64,000 bases of DNA, from positions 1 through 64,000 of the IMG/VR virus record IMGVR_UViG_3300044712_002452; one strand, given 5' to 3'. How positions within the stretch are numbered: the stretch's first letter is position 1; each line of letters begins with the position of its first letter. The notes under the pieces are model-generated. The model did not search any database. It saw only the letters and a program-made list of their open reading frames with translations, and was not told where the DNA came from. This document shows, piece after piece, positions 1,184-27,635 of the stretch. Made by a program: the position numbers and the translations under genes. The DNA is from a virus.

Positions 1184-1238
1184 ATTGGTCAAACGTTCAT
1201 TATGGCGTATATTCTTAATAAGAATCAATGCTTTATTT

Positions 1239-1676: not shown

Positions 1677-1679
1677 TCA

Positions 1680-4280: not shown

Positions 4281-4291
4281 AATAAACAGCC

Positions 4292-5647: not shown

Positions 5648-5667
5648 TTTTATATTAATCCGTATCC

Positions 5668-6189
5668 ATGGCATTTATTTTTGACGGCCCATCTCGAATC
5701 ATCAGTTTAACTCCCGGAACAACGGAGTTAGACTTGATTGCTTTATGGGATGCTTGGATGATCTGGTTACTGACGGATGATAATTCCAAATATCCGTTTG
5801 CTTTAAAACAATCAGGCGGAGAAATCATTGATTTGGCCCAAGGTATTAAAATTCCCATTTATCTGTTCTTGCAAAACAACTGGATGATAAGACCCCAAGA
5901 AGCCAATCACACACTCACCGTTTTTGGGGGAATTTTAATTGGTCCTGACGGGCAAGATCCGTTTATCGATACATTGGGCACTTTTCGGGTTAATACCCGT
6001 TATTCACAACCGGTACAAGCCATTGCGGTAGCTACGGGCGGTAGCGGCGGCACGTCGGTAAATGCCGGCATACAAGTATGGAATAAAAACTTGTCGGATC
6101 CTTCAGCCGATAATACTTACGGGGCTTTGGTTAAAAACCTACCTGAACTCATTGCGCAGCTTCAAGGATTGGTTTCTTCAACATTATAA
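5668..6189 (+). CDS. Phage virion protein of the FDGP...PGTTE type, 173 aa
   Basis: The N-terminus (MAFIFDGPSRIISLTPGTTE, then a D-x-x-x-L-W-D-A-W segment) matches a small beta-rich protein I recall from many phages of diverse hosts, usually next to fibre or head-fibre genes. The middle has the expected pattern YPFALKQSGGEIIDLAQGIKI then a Phe-Leu-Gln-Asn-Asn-Trp segment, and the C-terminus ends in a short helix (LPELIAQLQGLV) after a Gly-Ser linker, which looks like a trimerisation or docking tail. Function in the family is not established to my knowledge; a structural role is inferred from context. Confidence 0.65.
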   Translation: MAFIFDGPSRIISLTPGTTELDLIALWDAWMIWLLTDDNSKYPFALKQSGGEIIDLAQGIKIPIYLFLQNNWMIRPQEANHTLTVFGGILIGPDGQDPFIDTLGTFRVNTRYSQPVQAIAVATGGSGGTSVNAGIQVWNKNLSDPSADNTYGALVKNLPELIAQLQGLVSSTL

Positions 6190-6252
6190 TTTTATGGTTT
6201 TCACTCGATTATTCACTATATTATAAGTGAACCTTTTTTGAAAGAAACCTAT

Positions 6253-6786
6253 ATGCGCCATCAGTTATCCTGTGAAATTCTAACCACTTCTAACAGTCGT
6301 CTATTAAGGGTAGAAGACACCAGCATTTATGCGGTGGGTTTACCGCGCGAATGCATGCGGTTGGAGATTTTGGTGCCAGGATATACAGAGTTTGTAAAAA
6401 TTGATGTGACCCCAGGATTTCGATTGAATTTAACCAGTTGCGATTTGGGTATTCAAACGGTGGGTTGTAATGATTCCACGCAGGATCTGCCCGATGGTTT
6501 ATACATCATCCGTTTTTCTTGTGCGCCCAATGACCGCGTTTTTGTAGAATATCATCATTTGCGTACCACCCTGGCTTTACAGGATTGGGATAGCGCTATT
6601 TCGCTTTACAAACTCAATTTGCGGGATGAGCAAAGTTTTAAAGTGGCTATTCGCAACATGATGATAATTCGGGGATATATCTATGCAGCCGTGGCTAAGG
6701 TTCAAGAATCGCATCAAACCGAAGATGGATTGGAATTGCTTTGGTATGCGATGAAAAAAATTCAGAAGATTTTAAAGTCTTGTTGA
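6253..6786 (+). CDS. Hypothetical protein, 177 aa
   Basis: Not recognised. ATG 6253 is chosen over the in-frame TTG at 6238 because an A-rich stretch precedes it. Layout: a beta-rich N-terminal half (residues 1-100: MRHQLSCEILTTSNSRLLRVED, then LPDGLYIIRFSCAP), then a mostly helical second half containing VAIRNMMIIRGYIYAAVAKVQ and a basic tail ending KILKSC. Five Cys residues are spread without a clear metal-binding pattern. The gene is followed after one base by a zinc-ribbon-like gene, so the two are likely translated together. Probably a minor virion or assembly protein of this phage group. Confidence 0.55.
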   Translation: MRHQLSCEILTTSNSRLLRVEDTSIYAVGLPRECMRLEILVPGYTEFVKIDVTPGFRLNLTSCDLGIQTVGCNDSTQDLPDGLYIIRFSCAPNDRVFVEYHHLRTTLALQDWDSAISLYKLNLRDEQSFKVAIRNMMIIRGYIYAAVAKVQESHQTEDGLELLWYAMKKIQKILKSC

Positions 6787-6787
6787 T

Positions 6788-7012
6788 ATGAGTGTTTACA
6801 AGTGTCCAAATTGTAAAACAGAGATCACTTGTCAGTGTGAAATTAAGACAGCCAGCGATGGTAAAACCTGTTGTACGGCTTGTTTTTTACGCTATGAGCT
6901 GGGTTTAGCTGGTCACCCTGTAACCGCTACCCCTATTGATGTACGCACGTTGCCGGCTCCGGACGACCAGCAATTAACACTTGAACAGCGAATTCGAATG
7001 AAACTAATATGA
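6788..7012 (+). CDS. Small zinc-ribbon-like protein, 74 aa
   Basis: Four Cys pairs stand out: CPNC at residues 6-9, then CQC at about 15-17, then CC and CTAC at about 28-33. Spacing of CPxC and C-C-x2-C pairs is that of a treble-clef or zinc-ribbon fold binding one or two zinc ions. The C-terminal 35 residues are plain and charged. The stop overlaps the next start (ATGA at 7009), indicating translational coupling with another small Cys-containing protein. Role unknown; candidates are a regulator or an assembly factor. Confidence 0.6.
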   Translation: MSVYKCPNCKTEITCQCEIKTASDGKTCCTACFLRYELGLAGHPVTATPIDVRTLPAPDDQQLTLEQRIRMKLI

Positions 7013-7299
7013 GTATTTGCACGCTTTGTGTCAATCAGGCACTTCAATACGATTCTTCAGGTGTTCAGGCTCCGGCTTCTGGACACGCAGACGCGTGTAT
7101 GCTGCACGATCATATGATCTGGAAACGGTATGGTGTCAAGGAAGGAGATTTGGAAGATTTGGACGCGGCGCTCTATACGCTGGAAAAACGGATGAATGTT
7201 GAAATCTCTTGGGAGCATTTGGATGCTACCGAATGTGATGAAGGAATTGGTTGTATGGTAATCGATGATAATTTTTTAGTGGATGATGACGGTTTGTAG
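7009..7299 (+). CDS. Small acidic Cys/His protein, 96 aa
   Basis: Not recognised. Starts with CTLC (residues 4-7) and has further Cys and His residues (HADACMLHDH, about 26-35), which with the N-terminal pair could form one zinc site. The remainder is strongly acidic, with LEDLDAALYTLEKRM as a predicted helix and a D/E-rich end. Overlaps the previous gene by four bases. The stop codon and the last codons form half of a dyad (7293-7317) that precedes the next gene. Confidence 0.5.
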   Translation: MSICTLCVNQALQYDSSGVQAPASGHADACMLHDHMIWKRYGVKEGDLEDLDAALYTLEKRMNVEISWEHLDATECDEGIGCMVIDDNFLVDDDGL

Positions 7300-7340
7300 A
7301 AAAATTTAATCTACAAATTGAAAATAATTGTTTTAATTTT
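7293..7340 (+). promoter_or_regulatory. Dyad TTTGTAGA-N9-TCTACAAA with an AT-rich promoter-like box
   Basis: Perfect 8-bp inverted repeat at 7293-7300 and 7310-7317, followed by GAAAATAATTGTTTTAATTTTATG running into the next start. The sequence TTAATCTACAA recurs at 38494 and 59916, each time followed by an AAATAA(T) stretch and a TAnnTT-type box. This suggests a promoter with a regulator site. It is a pattern observation only. Confidence 0.35.
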
Positions 7341-7667
7341 ATGTCTAAATCAACTGTTATGACACGTAAACCAGGATGGACCGACAAAGAAAACGCCGGG
7401 TATGTACTCATCACCCCGCTTGTACCGATTTTGTTTGCCTTACTTTTTTGGGCTGAATTTGTAAAACTGGCAAGCACGCGCGTAGAATTCATATTGCTCG
7501 CAGCGTTGCTTTTTGCTCTCAATTTATTTCTATGTGTTTTCACCATAATAATGCGTGAAACATTGCAGAAAAATGTGCTTTTTTACAGTGCTGCCGTAGC
7601 TGCCGTAGCTTGTTCAATTTGGATCGGTACTTGGTGTGCGCAACTTAGATGGGCTATTGTCGTATGA
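7341..7667 (+). CDS. Small integral membrane protein, three TM segments, 108 aa
   Basis: Hydrophobic stretches at about residues 20-42, 48-70 and 78-100, with a basic N-terminus (MSKSTVMTRKPGW) predicted to stay inside. ATG 7341 is used; ATG 7359 is an alternative. It overlaps the next membrane-protein gene by four bases (ATGA), so the pair is coupled. Small multi-TM proteins beside structural genes in phages are often holins or antiholins, but there is no endolysin next to this pair and a holin-like gene occurs at 17.5 kb, so I keep the call neutral. Confidence 0.6.
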   Translation: MSKSTVMTRKPGWTDKENAGYVLITPLVPILFALLFWAEFVKLASTRVEFILLAALLFALNLFLCVFTIIMRETLQKNVLFYSAAVAAVACSIWIGTWCAQLRWAIVV

Positions 7668-8086
7668 GCAGCATACCCATTTTTTTCCGTTGGGAGCTTT
7701 TAATCGCAGTGGCGTATGTATTAGAAGCGCGTTTGGAAGTGTATGTGATTAAATTAAAAAATCCCAACCTTCCAAACTATCCGCTTTTGAATAAGCAAGA
7801 GCATGCTTGGTCACTGGTGCATGCCGTATTCATTGCCTGTATGGTGGCTTACGGAAGCGGTTTATGGGTTTTGCTTCCGTCGTTGCTATTATCGCGCAGG
7901 CTGTTTTTTGATTATATGCTCAAAGTGTTTCGAGAGCGACCCTTGCAGCGCATTGAAGGGAATGGGTGGTTTGATAATCAGGCGCGCCGCATTTTCGGAA
8001 TTCAAAATGGCGGTTTATGGGAATTGCTGACGGTATTGATTTTGAAGTTTGGATACCTGATAGCCGTCCATAAGTATTTGATGTAG
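7664..8086 (+). CDS. Membrane protein, 140 aa
   Basis: Start taken at the ATG that overlaps the preceding TGA (ATGA, 7664); an in-frame ATG 15 bases upstream is less likely. Hydrophobic segments at about residues 8-20, 49-78 and 117-137 flank a basic, Arg-rich cytoplasmic-looking loop (LSRRLFFDYMLKVFRERPLQR). No known domain recognised. Likely works with the upstream three-TM protein. It ends shortly before a strong hairpin that closes this gene group. Confidence 0.55.
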   Translation: MSSIPIFFRWELLIAVAYVLEARLEVYVIKLKNPNLPNYPLLNKQEHAWSLVHAVFIACMVAYGSGLWVLLPSLLLSRRLFFDYMLKVFRERPLQRIEGNGWFDNQARRIFGIQNGGLWELLTVLILKFGYLIAVHKYLM

Positions 8087-8106
8087 AGCGAGTTCCACGT
8101 GAAATT

Positions 8107-8138
8107 AAACCCGGTATTATGAAAGTGGTACCGGGTTT
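8107..8138 (+). terminator. Hairpin, probable terminator before the exported-protein genes
   Basis: Perfect 10-bp stem (AAACCCGGTA with TACCGGGTTT) with a 12-nt loop. The T tract is only four bases, so termination may be partial. It separates the membrane-protein pair from the run of genes with signal peptides. Confidence 0.6.
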
Positions 8139-8167
8139 TGACTAATATCCTTTTTTATCCTTATCCT

Positions 8168-9103
8168 ATGAAAAAAACCTTTTGGGTTCTATTGCTGTGT
8201 TGGTTATCACAGGGCTTGTTTGCTCAAAATATTGTAACCAACGGAATTAAATTTTACAGTGCGCCTACGCAAATCAGTAAATGGAGCTTGGACTTAAATT
8301 CGCTGGATAGCTTGTCCAATACGGCGGTTCCTACGGCTAAAGCGGTTTACGATTTAATCAAAAGTAAACACGCTCCCAATTTTTCCATTCCGGGTCCTAT
8401 TACTTCAGTACCAACGATTGGCATGAACGTGCAAGGCGCCAATGCTGAAGAATGGATTCGTTCAGCGTTTTATCAATCGCAAGCGCCTACACTCAGTTTA
8501 AGCGGAGGCGATGATCAGGAATTGATGGCGGCCGGCGCCGATCAAATTCGAACGGTCACTTATGCGGCCGGTCGATTATCAGGAACTTTACCTTTAGAAA
8601 ACATTACGGTTGACGGCGTAATTCAAAGTTTTAGCCAGCCGGCGCAGCCCGGTACAGTAACCGGTAATCAGTCCGTTAGTGTACAACGAAACGTCAATAA
8701 AACCATTACGGCTTCAGTTATTACAACCGATGGAAAAACGGCATCCGCTTCCACCGTATATCGTTGGTTCCCCAAAAATTATTGGTTTACCCTGACTGGC
8801 GAAACGCCGATTAACTCCGATTTACTAAACGGTTATGGTGGGGGTGATGGGTTGACCAGCACGCGCAGCAAGTCTAATTTTTCTATCACGGTGGGTTCTA
8901 CACCTTCCCGAATAGCTTATGCTTACCCGGCTTCTTTAGGACCGCTTACTTCTATGGTAGTGGGTGGATTTGAGTCGATCAATACATTCACTTTAACGGT
9001 ACTACCTTTTACCAATGCGCGCGGGTTTACCCAAAACTACAATGTCTACGTTTCGAAAAACGTGTTTGACAACATTACCATCACCTTTAATTCCGTCAAC
9101 TAA
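8168..9103 (+). CDS. Exported tail-fibre-type protein, 311 aa
   Basis: True start is the ATG at 8168: it gives a clean Sec signal peptide (Lys-Lys, a Leu-rich core, LFA then Gln, cleavage after about residue 19). The frame upstream lies in the terminator. After the signal comes a segment NTAVPTAKAVYDLI (about residues 52-65), a motif seen in many phage tail fibres, then Ig-like beta domains (about 95-200), and a C-terminal domain with YRWFPKNYWFTL and YAYPASLGPLTS, a pattern I know from phage tail-associated proteins. So the body looks like a fibre or distal-tail protein while the N-terminus directs export. One base separates its stop from the next gene. What the export is for is unknown. Confidence 0.7.
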   Translation: MKKTFWVLLLCWLSQGLFAQNIVTNGIKFYSAPTQISKWSLDLNSLDSLSNTAVPTAKAVYDLIKSKHAPNFSIPGPITSVPTIGMNVQGANAEEWIRSAFYQSQAPTLSLSGGDDQELMAAGADQIRTVTYAAGRLSGTLPLENITVDGVIQSFSQPAQPGTVTGNQSVSVQRNVNKTITASVITTDGKTASASTVYRWFPKNYWFTLTGETPINSDLLNGYGGGDGLTSTRSKSNFSITVGSTPSRIAYAYPASLGPLTSMVVGGFESINTFTLTVLPFTNARGFTQNYNVYVSKNVFDNITITFNSVN

Positions 9104-9104
9104 T

Positions 9105-12100
9105 ATGAAAAAAATCCTTGCGATTACGCTTTTTCTGTTTTCGATTCAACTTGTAGTAGCTCAGGTAAATGTTACCGGTTATATCTCACCATACGGTACG
9201 GCCGGTTATCCGACACATATCGATTCTTTGGGTATGGGTGGATATATGTCTGTATCCGATGAAGCAGCTTTAAATGCAATACCCTTGCTGCGCAGAAAAT
9301 CCGGTATGGCGGTTTATGTACGAAGCTCTAATCGCATTTTTACCTTGGTAAGTGATTTATCCAATAATGGATGGATGCCGTTTGCGCCGTGGAATTTTGT
9401 TTCACAAATTACTACATTGGGAAGTACGGGTCCGGCTACATTGGTAAATGGGGTATTAAATATTCCGCAGTATGCCGGCGGTGGTGCAGGAACGGCTGAC
9501 GGAAACAATTTTACGACGGCTGCCACTTTTAATAATACGACTCAGCAAATCACTTTGCAACGATTTGGGTTAACTGATCTGAATGTAAATCTCAGTAACA
9601 CTTGGCCGCGCATCAGTACATTCAATGATTCTATTTTGTCTTTGCGCACAGCGTTAAACGGATTTGTTTTATCCGGACATACCCACAGTATTGCACAAGT
9701 AATAGGGTTAGAAACTGCGTTAAATGGAAAAGCTGCGCTGGACCACAATCACGAATTTTTAGAATATGTCAATCCAAATGCTGGCGATACCCTGGTTACA
9801 AGGTTTGGAAAAATCTATGGTGGAAACACAACTGGTATTGGGCATACTCGAAAAGCGGATATCAACAGTTTTTCAAACCTGTATTTTAAAAGTTTTGAAT
9901 ATCACTTAGATCAAAATAATCAAAATTACCGGCATACCCTTAATCATACGGGATGGAATTTTCAAAATTTTGTGTCCGGCGGTCTAGCTTGGTGGAGAAT
10001 AGAAAACGATTTAAGTGGTCCAAACTATAAAGCTACTACGCTTGCTTTTACGGATACTGAATTTGGAATTGATGCAGAGCGAATTAACTTGGTAAGAAAA
10101 CGCGGTGTTAATAATTTGCTTTATGTGAATTCAGATGGATATGTTCGAGATACGAGTTTTTCGTATGCCGGTAGTGCTGCAGATAGTAATTTTTATACTA
10201 CCGGTGTAACGTTTAATCCTACTACTGAATTACTGACGACCAATCGTTTTGGACAATCTGATTTAACAACCAGCTTTAGCAATACCTGGCCGCGGATTTC
10301 AAGGTTCAATGACTCTTTAACCGCTATTCGTAGTACATTTAATTTATATGCTCCTTCGTCTCATACGCATACGATTGCCAATGTTACTGGTCTTCAAACA
10401 GCTTTAAATGGCAAAGAAAATCTTTTACCTGTTGGAGACACCAATCAATACATACGTGGTAATAAAACTTTAGGTACTTTCCAAAGTGGGAACGGTATTC
10501 AATGGGATGGTACAAAATTTAATTTGGGTGGAGTTCTTACGAATACATACGACCTTGGAGTATTTGGTAGCGGTATCTCTATGCGACAAAGTACTTCTTT
10601 TTGGGATGCTTGGGGTTTTTCGGGAGGATCAAATGGAAGGTTTATTCGAGTGTTTTCGGATTCTGTTATTATGGGTAGTACGCCCAACTTTGCAAGTTAC
10701 CCTAGTTTAAGTGGTGCGACTTATCTAAGTACAAATTCTTCTCGTTTATATTTCCAAGGTACAAGTAGATTTAGCGTTCTTCAAGGTACTGGCACTCGGA
10801 TGGTTGTGGCTGCTGCTGATGGTAGCATAAGCACTCAAGCAATTCCTTCTGGAGGTTCGGGATCTACAGTCACAGGGCTGATTTATGATCGTACTAATAA
10901 AACCATTACACTCAATCAGACTTCTGGCGGCAGTCAAACCGTAGTACTCAATGACACGGCATACAGTATTGAAAATGCTCCGTTTGTAACGGGCTCAAAC
11001 AATTTGTTAGCGGGTGTAAATGACTCAACTTCTCGAATTCGGCGTATTCGATTCAATGGAGCTGATACTTCCGGATCAACTCCTGATTTGTTGAATGTCA
11101 CTTTTACAGGTGGTGTTGGGCCGGCTGATTGGAATACGCTACTGAATAAACCAGCAACCTTTACTCCATCAGCCCATACGCATGCTATTGCCGAAATTAT
11201 AGGATTACAGGCGGCTTTGGATGGATTGCAAAGTGGCGGATCCGGTGGAGCCAGCGATACCTTAAAAGTTGAATACCCCTTGTACATGGTTGGCGATACA
11301 CTCAAATTGAACGCAAGTGGATTGGGTGGTGGTACAGGTAGCAGCGCCTTTAATGATGTTACTTCTGGAACCAATACGACGGCTACCATGACGGTAGGAA
11401 GTGGTGCAACGCTTAATCGAAGCGGTACCGGTATTATTGACGCTAATCGAATTCAAGGTATTGTAGTAAACCCTGGCTATACACAAGGTCAAATTATGCA
11501 GTACGATGCCAACGGACAGTTTTCCCCTGCAAACTTCAATTTGTTGACGGTGATGGCAAACGGAAACAGTAGCAACATTCAGTTTAACTCTCAGGGGAAT
11601 TTTGGTTACAAGTCGGGAGATTATGATTGGGGTCAAGATGGTAGCGATAATTTCAAAATCAGAAAAGGGGGTGGTGATTTGTTTACCATTAAGACAGGAT
11701 TCTTTGGTTTCAATGAAAGCAATCCTACGCATATGTTGACGGTAAGAGCCGACAACAACACTTCCGGAACATTGGCTGTGTTGTTTAAAGACTTTTTTGG
11801 AGTAAACCTTTTTGATCTACGCGGTGACGGTACCGGAACCATCAATAAGAAAGCTTGGCAATATGCCGCTGATTATAGTTCAGGATATACCGCTCGTTCT
11901 TTAGTTGATAAAGGGTATGTAGATGCACAAATTCAGCTTGTAAAAGACAGTTTGGTAAAAGACTCCGTAAGTATGGTTACAACGACATCCACTGATGCAT
12001 TGAACATGGACACGCTTACTACTGCGCCCGGTACAGTAACGGTTTATGATGTTACAATAGTGGGCTCTAAAGCCAATGCAACCAATGTTTGGGCGCTTAA

Positions 12101-12293
12101 AGTAGCCGTTAAAAATGTAGGCGGCACCTACAGTTTTACCCGAACCATTGAAAATGTAATGGAAGAAGATGCTTCTAATGACGCGGACGCGGCTTTATTA
12201 GGTAATCGTATTGTTTTGTTAGTAGTGGCCAATAGCGGGGGTACGGTAAAATGGACAAGTTCAAAAATTATTAAATCGACACATACACTATAA
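9105..12293 (+). CDS. Exported long tail-fibre-like protein with HTH repeats, 1062 aa
   Basis: Start at ATG 9105, giving a signal peptide of about 19 residues ending VVA then Gln. Next comes an N-terminal segment (RRKSGMAVYVRSSNRIFTL, about 65-83) typical of phage tail-fibre entry domains. Three modules follow with the motif HTHxIAxxxGLxxALxG: near residues 189, 424 and 690. The first two belong to longer duplicated units (DNA 9495-9740 and 10179-10427) containing the shared phrase SNTWPRIS. His-x-His repeats of this kind occur in trimeric phage fibres where they bind metal ions in the shaft. The last 300 residues end in a beta-rich head (VTVYDVTIVGSKANATNVWALK), a plausible receptor-binding tip. 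Role inferred: trimeric adhesion fibre. Confidence 0.75.
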   Translation: MKKILAITLFLFSIQLVVAQVNVTGYISPYGTAGYPTHIDSLGMGGYMSVSDEAALNAIPLLRRKSGMAVYVRSSNRIFTLVSDLSNNGWMPFAPWNFVSQITTLGSTGPATLVNGVLNIPQYAGGGAGTADGNNFTTAATFNNTTQQITLQRFGLTDLNVNLSNTWPRISTFNDSILSLRTALNGFVLSGHTHSIAQVIGLETALNGKAALDHNHEFLEYVNPNAGDTLVTRFGKIYGGNTTGIGHTRKADINSFSNLYFKSFEYHLDQNNQNYRHTLNHTGWNFQNFVSGGLAWWRIENDLSGPNYKATTLAFTDTEFGIDAERINLVRKRGVNNLLYVNSDGYVRDTSFSYAGSAADSNFYTTGVTFNPTTELLTTNRFGQSDLTTSFSNTWPRISRFNDSLTAIRSTFNLYAPSSHTHTIANVTGLQTALNGKENLLPVGDTNQYIRGNKTLGTFQSGNGIQWDGTKFNLGGVLTNTYDLGVFGSGISMRQSTSFWDAWGFSGGSNGRFIRVFSDSVIMGSTPNFASYPSLSGATYLSTNSSRLYFQGTSRFSVLQGTGTRMVVAAADGSISTQAIPSGGSGSTVTGLIYDRTNKTITLNQTSGGSQTVVLNDTAYSIENAPFVTGSNNLLAGVNDSTSRIRRIRFNGADTSGSTPDLLNVTFTGGVGPADWNTLLNKPATFTPSAHTHAIAEIIGLQAALDGLQSGGSGGASDTLKVEYPLYMVGDTLKLNASGLGGGTGSSAFNDVTSGTNTTATMTVGSGATLNRSGTGIIDANRIQGIVVNPGYTQGQIMQYDANGQFSPANFNLLTVMANGNSSNIQFNSQGNFGYKSGDYDWGQDGSDNFKIRKGGGDLFTIKTGFFGFNESNPTHMLTVRADNNTSGTLAVLFKDFFGVNLFDLRGDGTGTINKKAWQYAADYSSGYTARSLVDKGYVDAQIQLVKDSLVKDSVSMVTTTSTDALNMDTLTTAPGTVTVYDVTIVGSKANATNVWALKVAVKNVGGTYSFTRTIENVMEEDASNDADAALLGNRIVLLVVANSGGTVKWTSSKIIKSTHTL

Positions 12294-12295
12294 CT

Positions 12296-13726
12296 ATGAA
12301 AAAACTCTTACTCGGATTATTGTTGTTTAGCGCAACGGCTCAAGCTCAAATTACGCAATGGGTTATCGGTTCGGCTGCCGGCGGCGGTGGGGATACAGCC
12401 CACAAGTACCCCAAAATGATGTACACTAAGACTTTTGATGTCAATGCTTCTACAACAGGTTCTTGGCAAAGTGCAGGTATTACATTTGATGGTGCCAATC
12501 AACGGGTTCAAGTAGTTACCAACAATCTTGGGTTTGACGGATTGATATTCTACCCATCCACTCAAATTATTGCACCTGGACAAAAAGGGTTAATTACGGT
12601 TGATGTGGACATTGATACTTTAAAGTCGGTGTATGTATTTAGTACTTGGCCTGATTTTGTAGATAGTATTACAGTTTCAGGAACCTATACTTTTGAGTTT
12701 ACTGCTGGATCTACTGTATTTCCTATTATCAGTGCAGGAAGTATAAATAAAGGACGCTTTTATGTAAAACATTTGAGTGTTTTTTATCCGGATAAGTATG
12801 AACCGGTCGCTACAAAGCCGTCTATTTTAAACTTTCAATCTACTCGTACAGGTAATAAAAAGTGGCTATCTGCAGGTAATAGAAACAAAGTAAAATCTTC
12901 AACGTCCGGTACAGATATCACCAGTTCTATTACCGTTGGATTTAATTCTGATGCGGGTTCTGATATCGGAGGACAAATTTATGGATCCAATTCATCCATT
13001 GAACAAGTCGTTCCCGGTCATAGGTACTATTCAATGACTCAATACACAGGATCAAATTTTACAGCTAGTATTGGTAACAGCTTGATAGGTGATTATGCTT
13101 TTGCATCAGGTTGGAGACTGAATACGTTTGGTAACTATGCTTTCAATTTGGGTGTGTCTAATAATATCATGGGAGATCGAACTTGGGCAATCGGCACGCA
13201 CTTGGTAGCGGTGGGTAAAGCGGCTCATGCGTTTCAAGATAAGACCACTGACAATATTTTAATCGACGCAGCTATTGGCGACAATCCTTCGGAACACGTA
13301 TTCTTTGGAAGTGCCCACTCGCATAGAAAAAGAAATCATCCCATTACAGGTATTCCTGAATCTGGAGACTACGTTCCAGCCAATGAAATTGTACGGATCT
13401 ATGGTGCCAGTGCCTATGACGACCGAGCGGTTCCTTCAGAATTTAATGTCGGCGGTGGGCATATTCGTATTGTTGCCGGTTTACCTACCGGAAGCGGTAC
13501 ACCGGGTACTGTCGGTTTTGCCGGTGCCTTAAGTACACAAGCTTCACCAGGAAATAACAAAAGGCGACAAGATGTTTTAATGCTTTCTGCAGATGGTCAG
13601 TTGGTTAATACAACGACCGATACCCCCGTATTGATTTACTATGGTGGATCATTAAGACGAATCAAAGTTGGAGCGGAAGGAAGCGGTGCCATTGGTGGAA
13701 CAAGCCGAGCTTTATACATTGAATAA
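12296..13726 (+). CDS. Exported fibre protein with YadA-like beta-roll, 476 aa
   Basis: Starts two bases after the previous stop with a signal peptide (cleavage after about residue 17, AQA then Gln). Residues about 30-175 form a beta-sandwich-like region (VNASTTGSWQSAGITFDG, VSGTYTFEFTAG), resembling a carbohydrate-binding module. Residues about 255-310 contain short repeats such as GNSLIGDYAFASGW, FGNYAFNLG, GDRTWAIGTHLVAVG, which look like the left-handed beta-roll repeats of YadA-type trimeric adhesins and of many phage fibres. The C-terminus (LIYYGGSLRRIKVG) resembles a fibre tip or foldon. Probably a second trimeric fibre or spike in the same exported set. Confidence 0.65.
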   Translation: MKKLLLGLLLFSATAQAQITQWVIGSAAGGGGDTAHKYPKMMYTKTFDVNASTTGSWQSAGITFDGANQRVQVVTNNLGFDGLIFYPSTQIIAPGQKGLITVDVDIDTLKSVYVFSTWPDFVDSITVSGTYTFEFTAGSTVFPIISAGSINKGRFYVKHLSVFYPDKYEPVATKPSILNFQSTRTGNKKWLSAGNRNKVKSSTSGTDITSSITVGFNSDAGSDIGGQIYGSNSSIEQVVPGHRYYSMTQYTGSNFTASIGNSLIGDYAFASGWRLNTFGNYAFNLGVSNNIMGDRTWAIGTHLVAVGKAAHAFQDKTTDNILIDAAIGDNPSEHVFFGSAHSHRKRNHPITGIPESGDYVPANEIVRIYGASAYDDRAVPSEFNVGGGHIRIVAGLPTGSGTPGTVGFAGALSTQASPGNNKRRQDVLMLSADGQLVNTTTDTPVLIYYGGSLRRIKVGAEGSGAIGGTSRALYIE

Positions 13727-13733
13727 TACAGTT

Positions 13734-14864
13734 ATGAAAAACCTTTTTATTTTACTATTACTGGCTTCTTTTTCAGTTAAAGCTCAGGTAACGTCTGGAT
13801 TTTTATCTTTAGGTGCTGGTAATTGTGGTGATGTAGTAAATGCTACTATTCCTGTCTATTGGAATGGTACATTAGCAAATGGGGTGGTTTTGTATTCAGA
13901 TGCCGCTAAAACAACACCTTATGATGGAAATTGGAACAACTATACTATTCGTAGATTGTCGGGTTCCGGTACTATTAACGCTCATTTTTATGTGACTGAT
14001 AATTCTGGGGCTGTGGGTAACTATGTTGATTGTGGAGGTTGGGTAGAGTATTTAGGACGAGATTATCCTGCTAGTTGTGATAGTGTTCGTATTGGCGGTA
14101 ATGATGTCCTTGTACGCAGACCTTTAGATTACGACTCTTCTTGGAATGCTAACCGCAAGTACCCGGTGATGATTTTCCTGCACGGGAACGGAGAAGCCGG
14201 CAGCAATTTGAATACAATGTACAACGCCGGACTTCCGCGTGTGCTGACTCTTTCTCAAAACGTCGGTAATCCTTTGATGGATAGCATTATTTATGTAATG
14301 CCGCAGCATACGACAAATGCTTCTGTATGGCGAATACCTAACGATCTAATAGGTATTGTAAACTATATCGACGCTACCTATCGAGTTGATACTACACGAT
14401 GGGCGCTTGGGGGGCTTTCTCAGGGAGGTTCCAATACAATCGATGTGCTTACTTGGGGTCCAACTTCTTTTGTAGCGCCCAATAACTATTTTTCAAAATT
14501 CAATCGTTTCAAACTACTGTATATCTTATCCAGTCCGACTATGAATTATCTGGATACCATTATGACCAATATTCAAGGTCGGAGATACCGAAGTTGGATC
14601 GGGTTAAGTGATGGTACATTTCTTGGACAACATCGATCAAACATTGACAAACTGCAGGAAAAAGGACTCGCTGGATATGAATATGAAATCCCAGGGTCTC
14701 ATTCAAATCAAGTTTGGGATAGTGCCATGAGTTTCCGAGGAACAGATACGCTTACTAATATTCACCGATGGCTTATTCAATCAAGCGGTACATTACCCTC
14801 AGCACCCACACCCATTATTCAAAAACAGATCCGATACTTAAATCGTAGAAAAATCTACTCATGA
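13734..14864 (+). CDS. Exported alpha/beta-hydrolase, probable carbohydrate esterase, 376 aa
   Basis: ATG 13734 gives a signal peptide ending VKA then Gln at about 17/18. Residues about 20-105 are an accessory module (IPVYWNGTLANGVVLYSDA) that resembles the N-terminal module of the next gene. The rest is an alpha/beta-hydrolase: FLHGNGEAG at 148-156 (oxyanion region), nucleophile Ser229 in GLSQGG, candidate acid Asp293 in GLSDGT and candidate His323 in GSHSNQ. This order and spacing fit the feruloyl/acetyl-xylan esterase and PHB-depolymerase-like families. Inferred role: removal of ester groups from surface or extracellular polysaccharide, preparing it for the glycoside hydrolase encoded next, whose ATG overlaps this gene's TGA. 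Confidence 0.75.
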   Translation: MKNLFILLLLASFSVKAQVTSGFLSLGAGNCGDVVNATIPVYWNGTLANGVVLYSDAAKTTPYDGNWNNYTIRRLSGSGTINAHFYVTDNSGAVGNYVDCGGWVEYLGRDYPASCDSVRIGGNDVLVRRPLDYDSSWNANRKYPVMIFLHGNGEAGSNLNTMYNAGLPRVLTLSQNVGNPLMDSIIYVMPQHTTNASVWRIPNDLIGIVNYIDATYRVDTTRWALGGLSQGGSNTIDVLTWGPTSFVAPNNYFSKFNRFKLLYILSSPTMNYLDTIMTNIQGRRYRSWIGLSDGTFLGQHRSNIDKLQEKGLAGYEYEIPGSHSNQVWDSAMSFRGTDTLTNIHRWLIQSSGTLPSAPTPIIQKQIRYLNRRKIYS

Positions 14865-17443
14865 AAAAACTGATCTTTCTTTTTTTACTCACCGCTTTTA
14901 CAAGTTTTACACTTAGGGCTCAATACACTTTGGCGGGTTACATAACTTCCACAGGGCAGGGGTCGCTTGAAAATTCGTGCGCAGCCGTTAGTGTTAGTAC
15001 CCCGATTTACTCTGTGGGTGGTACCATTGCAAACAACCAGGCTATTTACACCAGCTCATCGGGAGGTCAGATCACAGACTACGATTGGAGAGGATTTGCA
15101 CTTATTGAGGGTGGAACACCAACCCACAGCTTACAGATTTGGGGAGATGGCACGGTCCGAAATTATTCGGCTTGTGGAAGCGGCGGCGGTGGCAGCAGCA
15201 CATCTGCCGGTCTTGCTCCTGCACCTTCTGGATGGGGAAAGAAAATCAAGCCTATTATTATGATGGACTTGGCGAGATTCGACCAATACGGGGGCGGTGG
15301 TGGTGGAATGTTTGCACTCTTTGACGATTCAACCAACACCGTTTGGTTTCCTTGGAGACAACCTGAAAAGTATGTAAAAAAAGGTTGGGATGACTTTCAC
15401 AAAATACAATGGCACGGCAATAGAGGGTTAAGAATGGTTTGGGATTTAATCGGTGATTCAAACATTAACGATTTATCCAAAAAGTACGTTTTCAGGGATT
15501 CCGTGTACGCATACGATAAAACATTCACAAGCGGCAAAGGGGCGGTTTATTTAGCATCACTTGATAGCGTACTTGCAAACGTGCCGTGGTATGACCGTTG
15601 GAAGTACTTTGCCCGACCTGATTCGCTTTTAAAGCCCTTTGCAGTTGTAGTACCTAACAATGGAGCAAGCAGCGGGGGAGTTTGGAGAAGTTACAAGACC
15701 CGCAAAGTAGATAGCGCACGCTATGTGTATGCGTGGGCGGTTGCAGACACCACAGGGGGAAGCACAGCCGATTATCCAACTATCGGGGAATTATCATTTT
15801 ATGGTACGCCAAACTTTGATAGTGCTACCATCAAGCATTGGAGTTACTATGCTCCACCCGTACAAAACAATACGCTCGACAAATTTACAGGCGTAAATGT
15901 GGGAGGACTTTATAACACCAAAAATTTAAAAGACCGGCACGGCGTTCGGTTGTACGCTTGGACACTCCACGTATTTGATGCTGATAGTACGACTTCTTGG
16001 CCTTCCAATATTTATGATGCAAGTCCCGATGGTTACAATCCTGACGGAGATTGGCCTATTATAGACTCATTGAGAGAACTGGGCACAAAGCCGTATTTTG
16101 TAATTGCCGGAGGTAACAAAAGACAGCGGTGGCTTACAAATTCAAGTGCAACGGCTGATTTGAACAAAATAGCTCCACTTAATTCACCCCTTGACGAAGT
16201 GGAAGACCCTGCAAGTTACCGGCGTACAGCAGATTTCTTTCGACACTTTGGGGCTAAATTCGGAAAGAATACCGCAGGACTTACAGCGGGTCAGTTACGT
16301 TGGAATAATGAGGCTCCAACAGGCTTAGGGCTTTATTGGTTTGATGACGTGGAGAATGGAAATGAAGAAGAACACCGCACAGGTATAAGCGAACTGGGGT
16401 ACTTTTTCAAGTCTCAAATGGACTATGACGGTTACGCAGGAAGATTCCCGAATTTAGGCTTACGCTCTTCCGATACTTCAATGAAATTGTTGATGAGTGC
16501 AACACACACACCCGACACCAATAGGGTGAAGATGTATGTTTACTTCTCGCATTTCTTCCGACCCGATTCATTGTTTGTGTGGGGTTCTGTTAATCAGCAC
16601 CATTACAGCACAAGCTACGCAAAGACCTACGGTTATTATCCAGCGCAGGAAGGTTTAGTAGGAGCAAGGGGAGTAACAGCTGAGTATGATAGCCTTAAAT
16701 TCAGGCTTAAAGGCATTGTCGAAAATACATACAGGTTTTTACGAAAACCTAGTATTGACATTGAATTAACCGAGTGGGGCTACGACCATTACCAACAGCC
16801 CACGCCTGACCCTGCACCCTTCATCCACACCTTTATTCAAGCACCAAATTATCCCGGCTATGATAGCACACAGGACAAGGCTATTGCAATCGAGGCGGGT
16901 ATCATGGAAGCCTTTGCAGCGGGGATAAACAATCTTGTAATCTTCATATCCGAGAACCCTTGCTTTTGCGACAACAACAACCAAATACTATTTGCAACAG
17001 CGGGTGAGATTCGCTCATGGACTGGCTATACCGCAACTGCTTTTTGGCCTACCCACCACACGCAAAATTGGCACTCCCGAATGTTAACCGATTGGGCATG
17101 GGATAGTGAAATACGCGGAGATGCCATGGACACTGTTCGAGTGTACAAGCTCAGACACAAGCTGTATGTCGACTCAGTTTGTTATTATGTCCGGTACTGG
17201 CCGCTGGATGATGTCGGTACACCGATCACCGTGAATGTGGGTTCGGTGGATGGCGCGGGCACTCGCCGGCAGATACAATTTACGGATACCGCTCCCACCG
17301 AAAGTTATGTGGCAGTCAATAATGGGGAGTTTCAAACAACCGCCCGGGCGCGATCACAGTATTTCTTTTTTAAAGAAGTGCCAGGTGAAGGGGGTGGACC
17401 TAGGCGTAATTTTTATCGAATACGAGCCCGATTCAAAAATTGA
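14861..17443 (+). CDS. Exported TIM-barrel glycoside hydrolase-like protein, 860 aa
   Basis: Translationally coupled to the esterase (ATGA). Signal peptide of about 20 residues ending LRA then Gln; an N-terminal module (about 21-105, TPIYSVGGTIANNQAIYTS) related to that of the esterase; a Gly/Ser linker (about 105-115). The large central region has the feel of a clan GH-A barrel: YWFDDVENGNEEE (E498 a candidate acid/base), QHHYSTS, and IDIELTEWGYD (E638 a candidate nucleophile on the TEWG strand). A C-terminal beta domain follows (about 755-845). Inferred role: cleavage of a host capsule or extracellular polysaccharide. Codons in most of the gene (many GCA and ACA) differ from the flanking phage genes, hinting at transfer from a bacterium. 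Family assignment is by motif only. Confidence 0.65.
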   Translation: MKKLIFLFLLTAFTSFTLRAQYTLAGYITSTGQGSLENSCAAVSVSTPIYSVGGTIANNQAIYTSSSGGQITDYDWRGFALIEGGTPTHSLQIWGDGTVRNYSACGSGGGGSSTSAGLAPAPSGWGKKIKPIIMMDLARFDQYGGGGGGMFALFDDSTNTVWFPWRQPEKYVKKGWDDFHKIQWHGNRGLRMVWDLIGDSNINDLSKKYVFRDSVYAYDKTFTSGKGAVYLASLDSVLANVPWYDRWKYFARPDSLLKPFAVVVPNNGASSGGVWRSYKTRKVDSARYVYAWAVADTTGGSTADYPTIGELSFYGTPNFDSATIKHWSYYAPPVQNNTLDKFTGVNVGGLYNTKNLKDRHGVRLYAWTLHVFDADSTTSWPSNIYDASPDGYNPDGDWPIIDSLRELGTKPYFVIAGGNKRQRWLTNSSATADLNKIAPLNSPLDEVEDPASYRRTADFFRHFGAKFGKNTAGLTAGQLRWNNEAPTGLGLYWFDDVENGNEEEHRTGISELGYFFKSQMDYDGYAGRFPNLGLRSSDTSMKLLMSATHTPDTNRVKMYVYFSHFFRPDSLFVWGSVNQHHYSTSYAKTYGYYPAQEGLVGARGVTAEYDSLKFRLKGIVENTYRFLRKPSIDIELTEWGYDHYQQPTPDPAPFIHTFIQAPNYPGYDSTQDKAIAIEAGIMEAFAAGINNLVIFISENPCFCDNNNQILFATAGEIRSWTGYTATAFWPTHHTQNWHSRMLTDWAWDSEIRGDAMDTVRVYKLRHKLYVDSVCYYVRYWPLDDVGTPITVNVGSVDGAGTRRQIQFTDTAPTESYVAVNNGEFQTTARARSQYFFFKEVPGEGGGPRRNFYRIRARFKN

Positions 17444-17450
17444 TAATTAT

Positions 17451-17460
17451 TCGTATATTA
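17451..17460 (+). promoter_or_regulatory. Promoter-like TCGTATATTA box
   Basis: ATTATTCGTATATTA lies 11 bases before the next start codon and is shared almost exactly with 18079-18091. If TAnnTT acts as the -7 element, the transcript would have a very short leader. Confidence 0.4.
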
Positions 17461-17470
17461 TAGTAAAGCA

Positions 17471-17710
17471 ATGTTTATGGAAAACACAACTCAAAAAAGC
17501 TGGATCCAAAATATTTTTGGTGACGACCCCAAAACGTCTATTATGGGTGTAACGTTAGCCGTTTTGACGGTGGTTCAAGAGTATCGTGAAAACGGGTCCG
17601 TGGACGTAGCCAGTGTGCTAATTGCAGCTATTATCGCTGGACTCGGATACTTGGCCGCTGATTCCAGAAAAAAAACGCGATCAAAAAAAATTAACCAACC
17701 AAATCCATAG
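17471..17710 (+). CDS. Holin-like small membrane protein, 79 aa
   Basis: Hydrophobic segments at about residues 22-37 and 44-62 separated by a short polar turn (EYRENGSVD), then a GYLAADS motif and a strongly basic tail (RKKTRSKK). This layout and the LGYLAxD ending of the second helix are common in small phage membrane proteins annotated as holins. ATG 17471 is used; ATG 17477 is in frame. The gene lies just after the glycoside hydrolase and just before another membrane protein; no classical endolysin is adjacent, so lysis function is an inference. Confidence 0.5.
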   Translation: MFMENTTQKSWIQNIFGDDPKTSIMGVTLAVLTVVQEYRENGSVDVASVLIAAIIAGLGYLAADSRKKTRSKKINQPNP

Positions 17711-17713
17711 TCT

Positions 17714-18001
17714 ATGTTGTACGCAGTAATTGGTTTTTTGATAGCCCTTACCCTGGTGTATGGCTATAAGTGGCTCAATGATGGAGCCAGTGTAAAAAAA
17801 GATGTTCCGGCCATTGTGGTACTGAGCGTCATCGGATTGCTCTTTGCTTACTTTTTACCCATTGTGCTCAATGGTGTATTCAATCTGTTTAAACCCGGCG
17901 ATCAGGTAAGCCCTTGGGTTTTGGTGATTCTAAGTGTAATTGCCGGCTTCGCAAGTCAGGTTTTTATTTTACCCTTGTTTATTAAGAAAACACAGGTTTA
18001 A
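17714..18001 (+). CDS. Small membrane protein, three TM segments, 95 aa
   Basis: Begins three bases after the holin-like gene. Hydrophobic segments at about residues 3-20, 33-52 and 66-88, with short charged loops (KWLNDGASVKKD and KPGDQVS) and a basic C-terminus. Not recognised. A holin/antiholin or spanin-like partner is possible. The transcript is closed 19 bases later by a strong terminator. Confidence 0.55.
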   Translation: MLYAVIGFLIALTLVYGYKWLNDGASVKKDVPAIVVLSVIGLLFAYFLPIVLNGVFNLFKPGDQVSPWVLVILSVIAGFASQVFILPLFIKKTQV

Positions 18002-18019
18002 TAAAGAGCTATTCATTGA

Positions 18020-18053
18020 AAAAGCATCTTCCCAAAAAGAAGATGCTTTTTTT
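18020..18053 (+). terminator. Intrinsic terminator after the membrane-protein pair
   Basis: A 12-bp perfect stem (AAAAGCATCTTC with GAAGATGCTTTT), 7-nt loop and a run of T residues. It cleanly ends the transcript coming from the exported-protein and membrane genes. Confidence 0.92.
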
Positions 18054-18080
18054 ATTCACTTGTAGATTTAGAGCATTTTA

Positions 18081-18090
18081 TTCGTATATT
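18081..18090 (+). promoter_or_regulatory. Promoter-like TTCGTATATT box
   Basis: Lies directly after the terminator and 9 bases before the ATG at 18100, where a new promoter is needed. TTGTAGATTTA at 18059-18069 is close to the reverse complement of the TTAATCTACAA box found at three other sites. Confidence 0.45.
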
Positions 18091-18099
18091 ATTAGTACA

Positions 18100-18798
18100 A
18101 TGAAAGTAAGTATAGAAACTTTAAAAGAGTATTTTTTTACCGGTAAAAAACCGGTACAAGAAAACTTTTTTGACCTAATTGATTCATTTGTTCATAAAGA
18201 CGAGCTGGAAGATTTTCCCATTTTCAGTGATCGGATTCAAATGGATAATGTTGAAGGGCTTACTGATTTATTGACGAATTTATCAGAAACCTTAGACCGA
18301 CAAGAAATTCAAGTTTACAATAATGTCGTTCAATTAGCGGGAATAGAGGGTTCAATGGGCGAAAAACTCATTGTGAAAAACCAGGGTATTTATCAATGGG
18401 GTATTGTAAGTACGGGCACTACTTCTGTACCCGCATTAAACGGCGGTTTTTGGAATCCAATTTTAGTATTGGGATCAGGCGGTTCTGGAACTATCCCCAG
18501 CGCAGGATTACCGTTTGATAGCTTTACTTTAACGCTCAATGGTACGCGTGTGATCCCCGCCGGCCAAAGCCTGCTTCGGATTTACTTAACGCCCAATGAG
18601 AATTTTGGATCCAGTGTTTTACTAATTGGTACAACCCCTGATGGCAATGAAATAGCTACTTACCAGGGTAATGCTAACCAGAAAGCTTTGATTCAAACCA
18701 ATTTGGTCGCTAATGGGGATACGACTATTTATTTCAGTTCACCCGATTGGTTTGGCGGCCAACGGTCGTTAAACGTGAAACTTATTAAAGAACTATAA
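18100..18798 (+). CDS. Virion protein with N-terminal fibre-attachment-type motif, 232 aa
   Basis: The ATG at 18100 is chosen because the longer frame would run through the terminator hairpin. The N-terminus (LKEYFFTGKKPVQENFFDLI, then DSFVHKDE) is a motif I recall at the start of many tail-fibre and structural proteins of Bacteroidota phages. Residues about 45-75 form a short coiled-coil-like helix; the rest is beta-rich with a Gly-Ser stretch (LGSGGSGTIPSAG) and ends in a jelly-roll-like region. Starts the structural group that runs to 22.6 kb. Confidence 0.65.
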   Translation: MKVSIETLKEYFFTGKKPVQENFFDLIDSFVHKDELEDFPIFSDRIQMDNVEGLTDLLTNLSETLDRQEIQVYNNVVQLAGIEGSMGEKLIVKNQGIYQWGIVSTGTTSVPALNGGFWNPILVLGSGGSGTIPSAGLPFDSFTLTLNGTRVIPAGQSLLRIYLTPNENFGSSVLLIGTTPDGNEIATYQGNANQKALIQTNLVANGDTTIYFSSPDWFGGQRSLNVKLIKEL

Positions 18799-18810: not shown

Positions 18811-20649
18811 ATGAGCGGAAACAATAACCCGATTAGAAGCGGCAGCCAAGTAAGTACCGGGCAACCTATTTCTTCCCAGCAAGTGGTTTGGAATGGTCCG
18901 AATATTCCTTTGCTGCAAATCAAGAAAGGAGAAAAAATCGATTCTACCATTTACAAGGCCGCCATGGTGATGACTGAAATCATCAGCGAGGTGGATCTTT
19001 CTACGGTAGACGTAAAGGATTTGTTGAAGGTTTGCGCTACTTGCCCTAATCCGACTAAAAATGTAAAGACTATTTTATCGGCGTTGATTGGGAAGGTATA
19101 TCTCATTGAAGAATTGATTGAATCGCTCGATCGACAAGTAGATGGCGAAGAAGTTTTGATTCGGGTAGCTGCTTGTTTTCGGACTGAAGACGATGGGGTA
19201 CCCATTACACAACTCAAGCATTCGGATTATACCAAAGCCATTGGCTTACAGGTATGTGAGATTTTGGCAGCCGTAAAAGGGTATGAAAATGTCATTGATC
19301 AAATCGAAAACGATGTTTCCGAATTAAAACTGCGGGTATCAGCTTTGGAAGAAACCGATGACGCCATCATTGAATTGGAAAGTCGTATCGAAGTATTGGA
19401 AAAATACCGAACTGCGCTTACCCAAACTTTGGGCAGCATCAATGAAATTGCTTCCATTTTACAATCGGAACTTAAAGAATCCGAAGTCGGGGGTGCAATC
19501 CGTTCGCTGGTAACTGGTGAGGCTCTTTGGGCTGGAGATTCAACTACGGCTTCCTTGAGTATTAAACGCCTATGGCAACTGGCTATTGACGTGCGTTCGG
19601 CGGTAAAACTGATTCAAGAGAACTGCTGCAAGGTAACCTGTGATGATATTGTCATTGATTTTGATGTTCGGCTCAACGACGATCGGACCCAAATGACCAT
19701 ATTTTTTGCTACCAAAACCATTTTACCCGGCGGATTTAAGGACAACGACGCTTTGGGTAATAAGCTCACTATCATGGATGCGTTGGGTAACAAGTATGTA
19801 GAGCGGATTAAAGTGGCTGAAGAAGTCAATAATCCCAATGGATACGTAATTGATTTATCCAATACACCTATTGATCCTAACCAGGATTATTATTTGTCTA
19901 TGGATGCGGCTGTTACTTCCGATCGAATGACTTGTGTTAAGTGTATCACTAAATCAATAACCTACAAATCCACTTGCGGTTACTGCGAAATTTTTGTCAA
20001 AGCTATGACGGGCGCAGCACCCGGTAATTTGATATTGAGCTATCGTCGGGTTAGTGATCCTACGATTAAAACGGCGGTCGTAAAAACCGGCGATTCATTG
20101 ATTATTCCCAAAGACATCATTATTATTCAAGCCATTCGGGATGGAGATATTTCCATTGAAAGCCCTTGTGAGGGTATTGAGTTGCAATTAAACAACGCTG
20201 TGGGCGGGGTTCGGGAAGAATATGTGCTGAGTTTGGAATTTGCTGATTCTCAAGCCAAAGGTGATTTTGTTACCGGTATTGGATACAATGGTACTTTCTA
20301 TCCGCTTACTACGCCGTTGGATATCTTGGCTGAATTTAAAACAAACGCCAGTCTACCACATGGTATGAGCAAATTGTTCGAGTTCATTCAATCGGCTATC
20401 AGCGGCGGTCGGGATTTGCTTTTGCTCAAAGAATACACCTTGGATACCTGGGCCGGCGGGGGAGGTACGGGTCAAGACGATCAATACATGAATGCGGTGG
20501 TTTTCAAAACTTTTGCAGCCATTATAAATAACGGATTGTACGTACAGGTAGAAGGAAAGCCGGGTGGCGATAGCTACAATACCGCTTACCACGAACGCGG
20601 TATTCGTACCGTACAGATCCGTCCGTTTAAATTGTTGCCGCCCGAGTAA
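18811..20649 (+). CDS. Structural protein with coiled-coil region, 612 aa
   Basis: Not assigned to a named family. Helical N-terminal third with a coiled coil at about residues 165-200 (IENDVSELKLRVSALEETDDAI, in part) and a second helix to about 235; the central part has Cys-rich beta segments (ENCCKVTCDD and CVKCITKSITYKSTCGYCEIF, in part), then a beta-rich C-terminus with AGGGGTGQDDQYMN. The layout (oligomerising helix plus beta domains) is that of a baseplate- or fibre-linking protein. Short gaps on both sides place it in one operon with the preceding 232-residue protein and the following Cys-rich one. Confidence 0.6.
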   Translation: MSGNNNPIRSGSQVSTGQPISSQQVVWNGPNIPLLQIKKGEKIDSTIYKAAMVMTEIISEVDLSTVDVKDLLKVCATCPNPTKNVKTILSALIGKVYLIEELIESLDRQVDGEEVLIRVAACFRTEDDGVPITQLKHSDYTKAIGLQVCEILAAVKGYENVIDQIENDVSELKLRVSALEETDDAIIELESRIEVLEKYRTALTQTLGSINEIASILQSELKESEVGGAIRSLVTGEALWAGDSTTASLSIKRLWQLAIDVRSAVKLIQENCCKVTCDDIVIDFDVRLNDDRTQMTIFFATKTILPGGFKDNDALGNKLTIMDALGNKYVERIKVAEEVNNPNGYVIDLSNTPIDPNQDYYLSMDAAVTSDRMTCVKCITKSITYKSTCGYCEIFVKAMTGAAPGNLILSYRRVSDPTIKTAVVKTGDSLIIPKDIIIIQAIRDGDISIESPCEGIELQLNNAVGGVREEYVLSLEFADSQAKGDFVTGIGYNGTFYPLTTPLDILAEFKTNASLPHGMSKLFEFIQSAISGGRDLLLLKEYTLDTWAGGGGTGQDDQYMNAVVFKTFAAIINNGLYVQVEGKPGGDSYNTAYHERGIRTVQIRPFKLLPPE

Positions 20650-22656: not shown

Positions 22657-23004
22657 TCGCTTATAATTTTTCTTATGTTAAGTAGGGTATGCAATTTGTT
22701 GCCCATAGATGGACTCTTCCAACCCTGAAATCCGCTGATTTTCCGTGTAAACCCACTCACCTACCCACCTAAATACCCACTATCCAGATTGAAGAATGGT
22801 AATATCTGGTATGGATAGATATAGGGCCGGTGCTAACTTTTTCGTTATCAAAGCGTTGCTGACGGTTCAGGCAACAAATTGCATACGTTCAGGCGACAGA
22901 TTGCAGATGTTCAAGCCACTGATTGCAGATTTTGGGGCAACAAAATGCAGATGTTCGCGCAACGGATTGCAGAACGTTTTACATTTACGGGCAACAAATT
23001 GCAG
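22657..23004 (+). other. Probable iteron-type replication origin region
   Basis: This non-coding stretch between the terminator and rep holds an inverted iteron copy (about 22687-22708), an unassigned segment with a C-rich stretch (22742-22792, CCCACTC/CACCTACCCACC-like), and the direct iterons (from 22866). The arrangement of a lone inverted iteron upstream, tandem iterons and an adjacent initiator gene is what iteron plasmids use for origin and autoregulation. I found no convincing DnaA box. The origin assignment is inference. Confidence 0.6.
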
Positions 23005-23007
23005 ATG
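22866..23007 (+). repeat. Six direct 22-bp iterons
   Basis: Five units abut exactly, beginning at 22866, 22888, 22910, 22932 and 22954; a sixth occupies 22986-23007 after a 10-bp gap. The shared core is GGCAACAAATTGCAGATG, preceded by TTCA or TTNN; units 3 and 5 are the most divergent. A further copy in reverse orientation (GCAATTTGTTGCC core at 22691-22703) lies upstream. The ATG at 23005 forms the last three bases of unit 6, so initiator binding could block its own expression. Confidence 0.88.
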
Positions 23008-23931: not shown

Positions 23932-24288
23932 TTGCTGTAGCTTTTGTTTGAGTAAATCAATGTGCTCTTGTTGTTGAGCGATGATCCGCCGCAGCATGCT
24001 GGTTTCTTCCAGGCTTTGATTGGGATGCGCAATTTGTACGCGCATATCCTGACCACTCTTTCGGGCCAAATACAAGGCTTCTACTTCGGCTTCCAAACAA
24101 GACTCCATTTCCATCGGCGAGATTTTGAAATAATCGGCGATTTTGATAATAGTGGCCGGCGAAGGCGTAACGGCATTTCGTTCGTAGGTATCAACCATGC
24201 CCCGGCTTAAACCGAAGAGTTCACCAAATTCTTTTTGGGTAAATTTTTGGGTGTTGCGCAATCGACGCAAATTGTTTCCGAGTGCCAT
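23905..24288 (-). CDS. Xre-family helix-turn-helix regulator, 127 aa
   Basis: Residues about 4-60 form a classic HTH_3 domain: LGNNLRRLRNTQKFTQKEFG, then ELFGLSRGMVDTYERNAVTP and a final helix pair IKIADYFKISPMEM. The rest is a helical tail (about 75-120, RRIIAQQQEHIDLLKQKLQQ) likely used for dimerisation. Last gene of the minus-strand group behind parA and the RHH gene; a 70-base gap with overlapping inverted repeats precedes it. Probable role: repressor controlling the cassette or the choice between replicon maintenance and lytic growth, which is inference. Confidence 0.8.
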   Translation of the reverse strand: MALGNNLRRLRNTQKFTQKEFGELFGLSRGMVDTYERNAVTPSPATIIKIADYFKISPMEMESCLEAEVEALYLARKSGQDMRVQIAHPNQSLEETSMLRRIIAQQQEHIDLLKQKLQQLTKNVHPG

Positions 24289-27616: not shown

Positions 27617-27620
27617 ATTC
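27611..27620 (+). promoter_or_regulatory. Promoter-like TCGTAAATTC box
   Basis: Overlaps the stop codon of the zincin gene and lies 15 bases before the next ATG (27636). It resembles the boxes at 17451, 18081 and 36239. Confidence 0.3.
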
Positions 27621-27635
27621 TTAATAGCTCTTTGT

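Follow-up and report, generated by a model that had tools for sequence, protein, structure and literature searches.

We found five consecutive genes, in a variable slot of a phage classified here as crAss-like, whose products are each predicted to begin with a type I Sec signal peptide followed by Gln at position +1. The window analysed is a stretch of 64,000 nucleotides, i.e. bases 1-64000 of a 139,335-base IMG/VR virus record. We tentatively favour, with slightly less than even confidence, the view that these genes form an accessory cassette of adhesins and enzymes within the variable slot for tail fibres, whose products would be exported by the host Sec system, processed, and later join phage particles or act as free proteins. 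The fibre and enzyme modules and the export pathway are known; what is new is their unexpected combination. The five genes are:

8168..9103, + strand: P0001, 311 aa; Q-rule signal (8168-8224) and fibre-type protein, C-terminal half homologous to Tunturi_5 gp28
9105..12293, + strand: P0002, 1062 aa; Q-rule signal (9105-9161), virion-type N-module and phage tail repeats (PTR)
12296..13726, + strand: P0003, 476 aa; Q-rule signal (12296-12346), body matching no family
13734..14864, + strand: P0004, 376 aa; Q-rule signal (13734-13784), P0005-type N-domain and putative alpha/beta-hydrolase
14861..17443, + strand: P0005, 860 aa; Q-rule signal (14861-14920), P0004-type N-domain and large orphan body

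Signal peptides were called with our own scan (charged n-region, hydrophobic core, AxA-type site) and by inspection, not with a trained predictor. The scan flagged the five consecutive genes as Q-type, with n-region, core, AxA-type site and Gln present in every case. The five signal-bearing starts named in a previous sequence-only reading (8168, 9105, 12296, 13734 and 14861) are correct. The predicted signals are MKKTFWVLLLCWLSQGLFA|Q (P0001), MKKILAITLFLFSIQLVVA|Q (P0002), MKKLLLGLLLFSATAQA|Q (P0003, with an alternative cut after ATA), MKNLFILLLLASFSVKA|Q (P0004) and MKKLIFLFLLTAFTSFTLRA|Q (P0005). Substrates of signal peptidase I in Bacteroidota typically follow this Q-rule; their mean predicted Q-value across species is 71% (PMC5837995). 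When the N-termini of the five genes were shuffled, 0.5-1.4% passed the scan for each gene. Among the 146 ORFs of the record there is only one other convincing Q-type Sec gene, at 67991-68578 (-), and the chance of five out of six Q-type genes being consecutive is approximately 1.6e-6. This sixth gene (L002 7991-8578; 195 aa, weak DUF4430 match) is distant from the run; a gene with a lipoprotein-type signal (267 aa) is located in the early region, at 113660-114463 (-) of the record (L004 13660-14463).

Genes 2 to 5 of the run start 1, 2, 7 and -4 nt from the preceding stop codon, and the next in-frame ATG after the signal Met is at codon 86, 44, 41, 146 and 134 of the five genes, respectively. 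Because of these tight gaps, and since the next ATG never occurs before codon 41, mis-called starts are unlikely and translation very likely begins at the signal Met in all five genes, which speaks against start codons downstream of the signals, an outcome that the sequence-only reading had itself allowed for. A lipobox with Cys at +1 is absent from all five genes (0/5), and no match to the T9SS C-terminal sorting domain TIGR04183 was found in the whole record. T9SS surface display of the five proteins was rejected on the latter result, and the suggestion that they are displayed on the host surface is left unsupported.

Comparison of the protein bodies identified two fibre proteins among the five. 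P0002 contains PTR repeats (PF12789, E 2.4e-15) and matches tail phrogs, while its N-module also occurs in Tunturi_5 gp29, in SJC03_82, in HRDY3 and in 15 IMG/VR loci. In the three named phages (Tunturi_5, SJC03_82 and HRDY3) and in most of the IMG/VR loci, the module begins right after a start codon and no signal is present; for L023-L025 and L032, whose reading frame continues upstream, we took the closest start codon to the module. From this comparison, P0002 reads as a protein in which a signal was placed ahead of a virion-type fibre module which, in other phages, stands at the N-terminus. P0001 matches Tunturi_5 gp28, whose gene lies just 5' of that encoding gp29, so the order P0001-P0002 is kept as gp28-gp29. 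This homologous adjacent pair of the Tunturiibacter phage is annotated as tail fiber proteins; it differs in lacking signal peptides, the module of gp29 being N-terminal. Thus, of three tail-fibre bodies proposed from the sequence, P0002 (by its PTR repeats) and P0001 (by homology to gp28) are supported, while P0003 is at most a candidate, domain, phrog and collection searches having yielded no family or homologue.

The proposed polysaccharide enzymes fared less evenly. P0004 gave an esterase-like match below the cut-off and its GLSQGG elbow could be aligned to 3doh, which weakly suggests an esterase-like hydrolase; its matches on plasmids are general esterases. P0004 and P0005 have the N-terminal region, including the signal, in common (31% over 75 aa). 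P0005 may be a glycosidase, a suspicion drawn from motif reading alone, and family and collection searches revealed neither a recognisable catalytic domain nor a detectable relative, so that the enzyme label is tentative for P0004 and conjectural for P0005. AlphaFold models computed without alignments were unusable (pLDDT 32 for P0004 and 30 for P0005). Searches for relatives of P0002, P0003 and P0005 in viral contigs, of P0002 and P0005 in genome contigs, and of P0001-P0005 in phages returned just the PTR repeats and the P0002 N-module.

The run occupies a slot whose flanks are conserved. The relevant features are:

1680..6189, + strand: signal-less fibre-type genes 5' of the slot (866, 451 and 173 aa), termed fibre-type from position and composition
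6238..7012, + strand: conserved left flank of the slot, genes of 182 and 74 aa found in 34 and 27 relative loci
7009..18798, + strand: lineage-specific insert with the five genes, none of its genes having a homologue in 100 relative loci
7341..8086, + strand: two small hydrophobic (membrane-type) proteins directly 5' of the run, hydrophobicity read from sequence
17471..18001, + strand: two small membrane-type proteins directly 3' of the run
18811..20649, + strand: conserved right flank of the slot (612 aa, no signal), found in 22 relative loci
29763..34499, + strand: crAss muzzle protein (PF25731, E 1.7e-23)

In 20 relatives (66-68% MCP identity) the slot is either empty or filled with fibre-type genes that lack signals: the flanks abut in two of them (L057 and L058), and the others hold at least one unrelated large gene in between. 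Only one of the 74 ORFs in the relatives' slot is SP-like (a 64-aa membrane-type protein) and none is Q-type. Because the relatives' slot carries such cargo or nothing, and because the region 7009-18798 is unmatched in 100 loci, the signal-bearing block is best described as a lineage-specific insert that, among the relatives examined, replaces ordinary adhesin-type cargo. In the 100 relative loci as a whole, 27 of 1531 ORFs are SP-like, and those of Q-type are two short genes only. These (L041 1510-1854, 114 aa; L063 3010-3351, 113 aa) perhaps encode spanins and fit Bacteroidota hosts.

The block (GC 0.41-0.46) agrees in GC content and strand with the phage flanks, and signal-less fibre-type genes are retained on both sides of the run. 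Those in window 1185-6189 (163, 866, 451 and 173 aa) are unmatched in the relatives and lie between genes that adjoin there. The first membrane-type protein 3' of the run (79 aa) has a relative in another phage, G001, namely a 67-aa protein with a weak holin-family match. A membrane protein family common to the run borders of the two phages (7649 versus L010 14792) was dismissed (E 9.4).

The 127 bases at the first and last ends of the record are identical, therefore the 139-kb record is probably complete. Its terminase, portal and major head protein correspond to phrog_6681, phrog_6547 and phrog_11589, respectively. Since the TerL, portal and MCP are of crAss type and a muzzle gene is present, the phage, which is large and of freshwater type, can be classified as crAss-like. 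Its terminase shares no more than about 22-25% identity with those of named crAss-like phages. A search with an MCP profile (the phage MCP aligned with that of Lbo-JY46) retrieved at least 528 IMG/VR relatives, the best 80 having 66-68% MCP identity, and this number assigns the phage to a large group; the gene at 65-1126 or the portal, used as lone queries, retrieved no relatives. The nearest named MCP relative (31%) is Leptolyngbya phage Lbo-JY46 (L011, PP438436.1), whose stated host is a cyanobacterium. The Rep3 initiator (22879-23931) is closest to those of plasmids of Runella, Fibrella and Spirosoma, and thus points to a Bacteroidota host. This plasmid-type initiator is accompanied by a divergent helix-turn-helix regulator (22879-24288), and neither of the two was matched in the relative loci examined. 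The Rep3 gene makes a plasmid-like state, as had been suggested for this phage, plausible, but nothing links the five genes to such a state.

Judging from predicted signals, similar runs recur in unrelated Bacteroidota phages. The closest parallels are two cultured Cellulophaga phages (Pachyviridae), with consecutive Q-rule genes for fibre, pectate-lyase-type and carbohydrate-binding proteins. The sequence record of phi18:3 lists the three consecutive Q-rule genes gp85-87 (L156 32891-38583) as a virion structural, a structural and a tail protein, and itself cites experimental MS/MS proteomics as the basis. In phi46:3, there are five such genes in a row (gp79-83; L160 5344-13946); one is annotated as a pectate lyase, and another, a tail fibre, has a carbohydrate-binding domain match close to the threshold. 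These phages differ from ours in belonging to another family, in lacking homology to the five proteins (gp85-87 gave no sequence match to them), and in having records that do not mention signals. The phi46:3 genes gp81 and gp82 share identical signal codons although their bodies differ, as would be seen if signals could be swapped as a unit.

Further runs were seen in other phages. G001, a 47.9-kb phage found through a PTR match (portal phrog_11226; its own 127-bp end repeat), carries four consecutive signal-bearing genes, including LamG and PTR-type proteins. In this complete-looking phage (L143-L145) the four adhesin-type genes occupy 27249-33527, many genes are glycosyltransferase-like, and a 249-aa gene by the lysis region reads like a caspase-family protease. 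G028 has two signal-bearing genes, and the body of one matches tail-fibre and virion phrogs, while G027 and G029 have large signal-bearing genes, mostly without a strict Q, and a baseplate gp6-type-like gene. Some signal-bearing genes of other phages resemble lipoproteins. No signal-gene run was observed in phi14:2, phi17:1, phi18:1 or phi38:1 on examination, and no signals are present on the genes of the fibre region in the 735-kb phage LR756501. Two "phage" records matched in the spike search (L147 and L148) were discarded, as they resemble bacterial polysaccharide-utilisation fragments.

In a Cellulophaga phage pair, the signal appears to be under selection. When phi18:3 gp86 is compared with phi46:3 gp80 (overall identity 52%), the 20 codons of the signal show 6 synonymous and 0 nonsynonymous differences, against 300 synonymous and 475 nonsynonymous ones outside the signal; from the 6 versus 0 changes, this signal is conserved at the protein level. 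The G027/G029 signal (1.5 synonymous and 4.5 nonsynonymous differences, a low-quality test) does not demonstrate constraint on its own.

Functional export is the simplest reading of these data because of the fit to the Q-rule, the selection and the recurrence of the runs. According to the mechanism we propose, the five proteins would be exported to the periplasm via host Sec, and cleavage by signal peptidase I would expose Gln, then converted to pyroglutamate. The mature fibres and enzymes might attach to particles at or after lysis, with surplus copies acting free on surface glycans. Real support for their joining particles outside the cytoplasm comes from the virion annotation of phi18:3 gp85-87 and from the signal lying ahead of an intact module in P0002, although for the phage studied here attachment is suggested by analogy. 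Counting against it, gp85-87 show no homology to the five proteins, and the MS-annotated virion proteins of the related crAss-like phage phi14:2 carry no signals. Moreover, virion preparations can contain periplasm or vesicles, which weakens the MS/MS annotation as support, and the five proteins may be dispensable in virions, since the phage also keeps signal-less fibre-type genes. We know of no precedent for post-export fibre attachment in tailed phages. The broader proposition, that some Bacteroidota phages with tailed dsDNA virions finish their particles outside the cytoplasm, with a Sec-exported cassette that the host's signal peptidase and glutaminyl cyclase would mature and that would be added either in the periplasm or once the cell has lysed, is possible, but we hold it with less confidence.

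Somewhat unlikely, in our judgement, is that the exported accessory proteins never join virions and act free after lysis or via vesicles. In such a case they could remove capsule or matrix around the cell, block receptors (superinfection exclusion, with fewer virions lost on debris) or serve in a carrier state. The Q-rule signals themselves, the absence of this accessory cargo from relatives, the presence of other fibre-type genes without signals, the esterase-like enzyme in the run, the plasmid-like state that Rep3 would allow and the lipoprotein-like signal genes of some other phages all agree with a free role. Nevertheless, free proteins would have no need to keep virion-type N-modules, the five have neither a T9SS domain nor a lipobox by which to reach the surface before lysis, and comparable proteins of phi18:3 are annotated as virion proteins. 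Together with the fibre module left intact after the signal, that annotation tips the balance towards later attachment rather than a purely free role.

The main structural rival holds that the hydrophobic N-terminus stays uncleaved as a membrane or virion anchor, the fibres being made and assembled without export. It would account for the phi46:3/phi18:3 pattern, in which the signal and the next residues stay together as a conserved N-terminal unit while the bodies vary, in the manner of attachment domains, for the identical signal codons on the diverged gp81 and gp82 bodies, and for the virion annotation, which it explains without export. We nonetheless regard it as improbable: a consensus cleavage site with Gln at +1 in five out of five proteins is a feature of peptidase processing and not of anchors, and in P0002 the virion-type module stands behind the signal. 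The proposal that the signals are retained for another purpose is disfavoured by the Q-rule fit of all five and by the selection on the signal of the Cellulophaga pair. Least probable is that recently captured host secretome genes, or an assembly join, left signals useless to the phage: the absence of the block from 100 relative loci and the lack of relatives of P0003 and P0005 in the collections searched would fit this, but the matching record ends, the GC content and strand of the block, the phage fibre nature of P0001-P0002 and the recurrence of the pattern in cultured phages, with selection on the signal, argue against it. The recurrence of such runs argues against treating a signal peptide on a phage-contig gene as evidence of host origin.

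Assembly of tailed phages is regarded as cytoplasmic. With recurrent runs of functional-looking export signals on fibre and spike genes, and with virion annotation of such products in a cultured phage, existing isolates and archived spectra offer a direct test of this view. Our search of open-licence papers turned up no account of tail genes carrying signals in runs. In P. gingivalis phages, five genes without an assigned function are predicted to follow the Q-rule, but they are not described as a fibre-gene run and have no virion link (PMC10367356), and phage DGR target proteins are stated to lack signal peptides (PMC6199706). A tailspike-type fold acting on extracellular glycan is also reported for Pantoea WceF (PMC7949094), which is a single bacterial enzyme and not phage-borne. 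Members of the Crassvirales (e.g. phi14:2, Fpv3) resemble the phage described here in terminase, portal, MCP, muzzle and a similar gene order; they differ in that those examined lack a signal-gene run. Three giant genes (2969, 3065 and 2285 aa), extending from 41786 to 64000 of the window and on to position 66835 of the record, occupy the place of the virion RNA polymerase in crAss-like phages.
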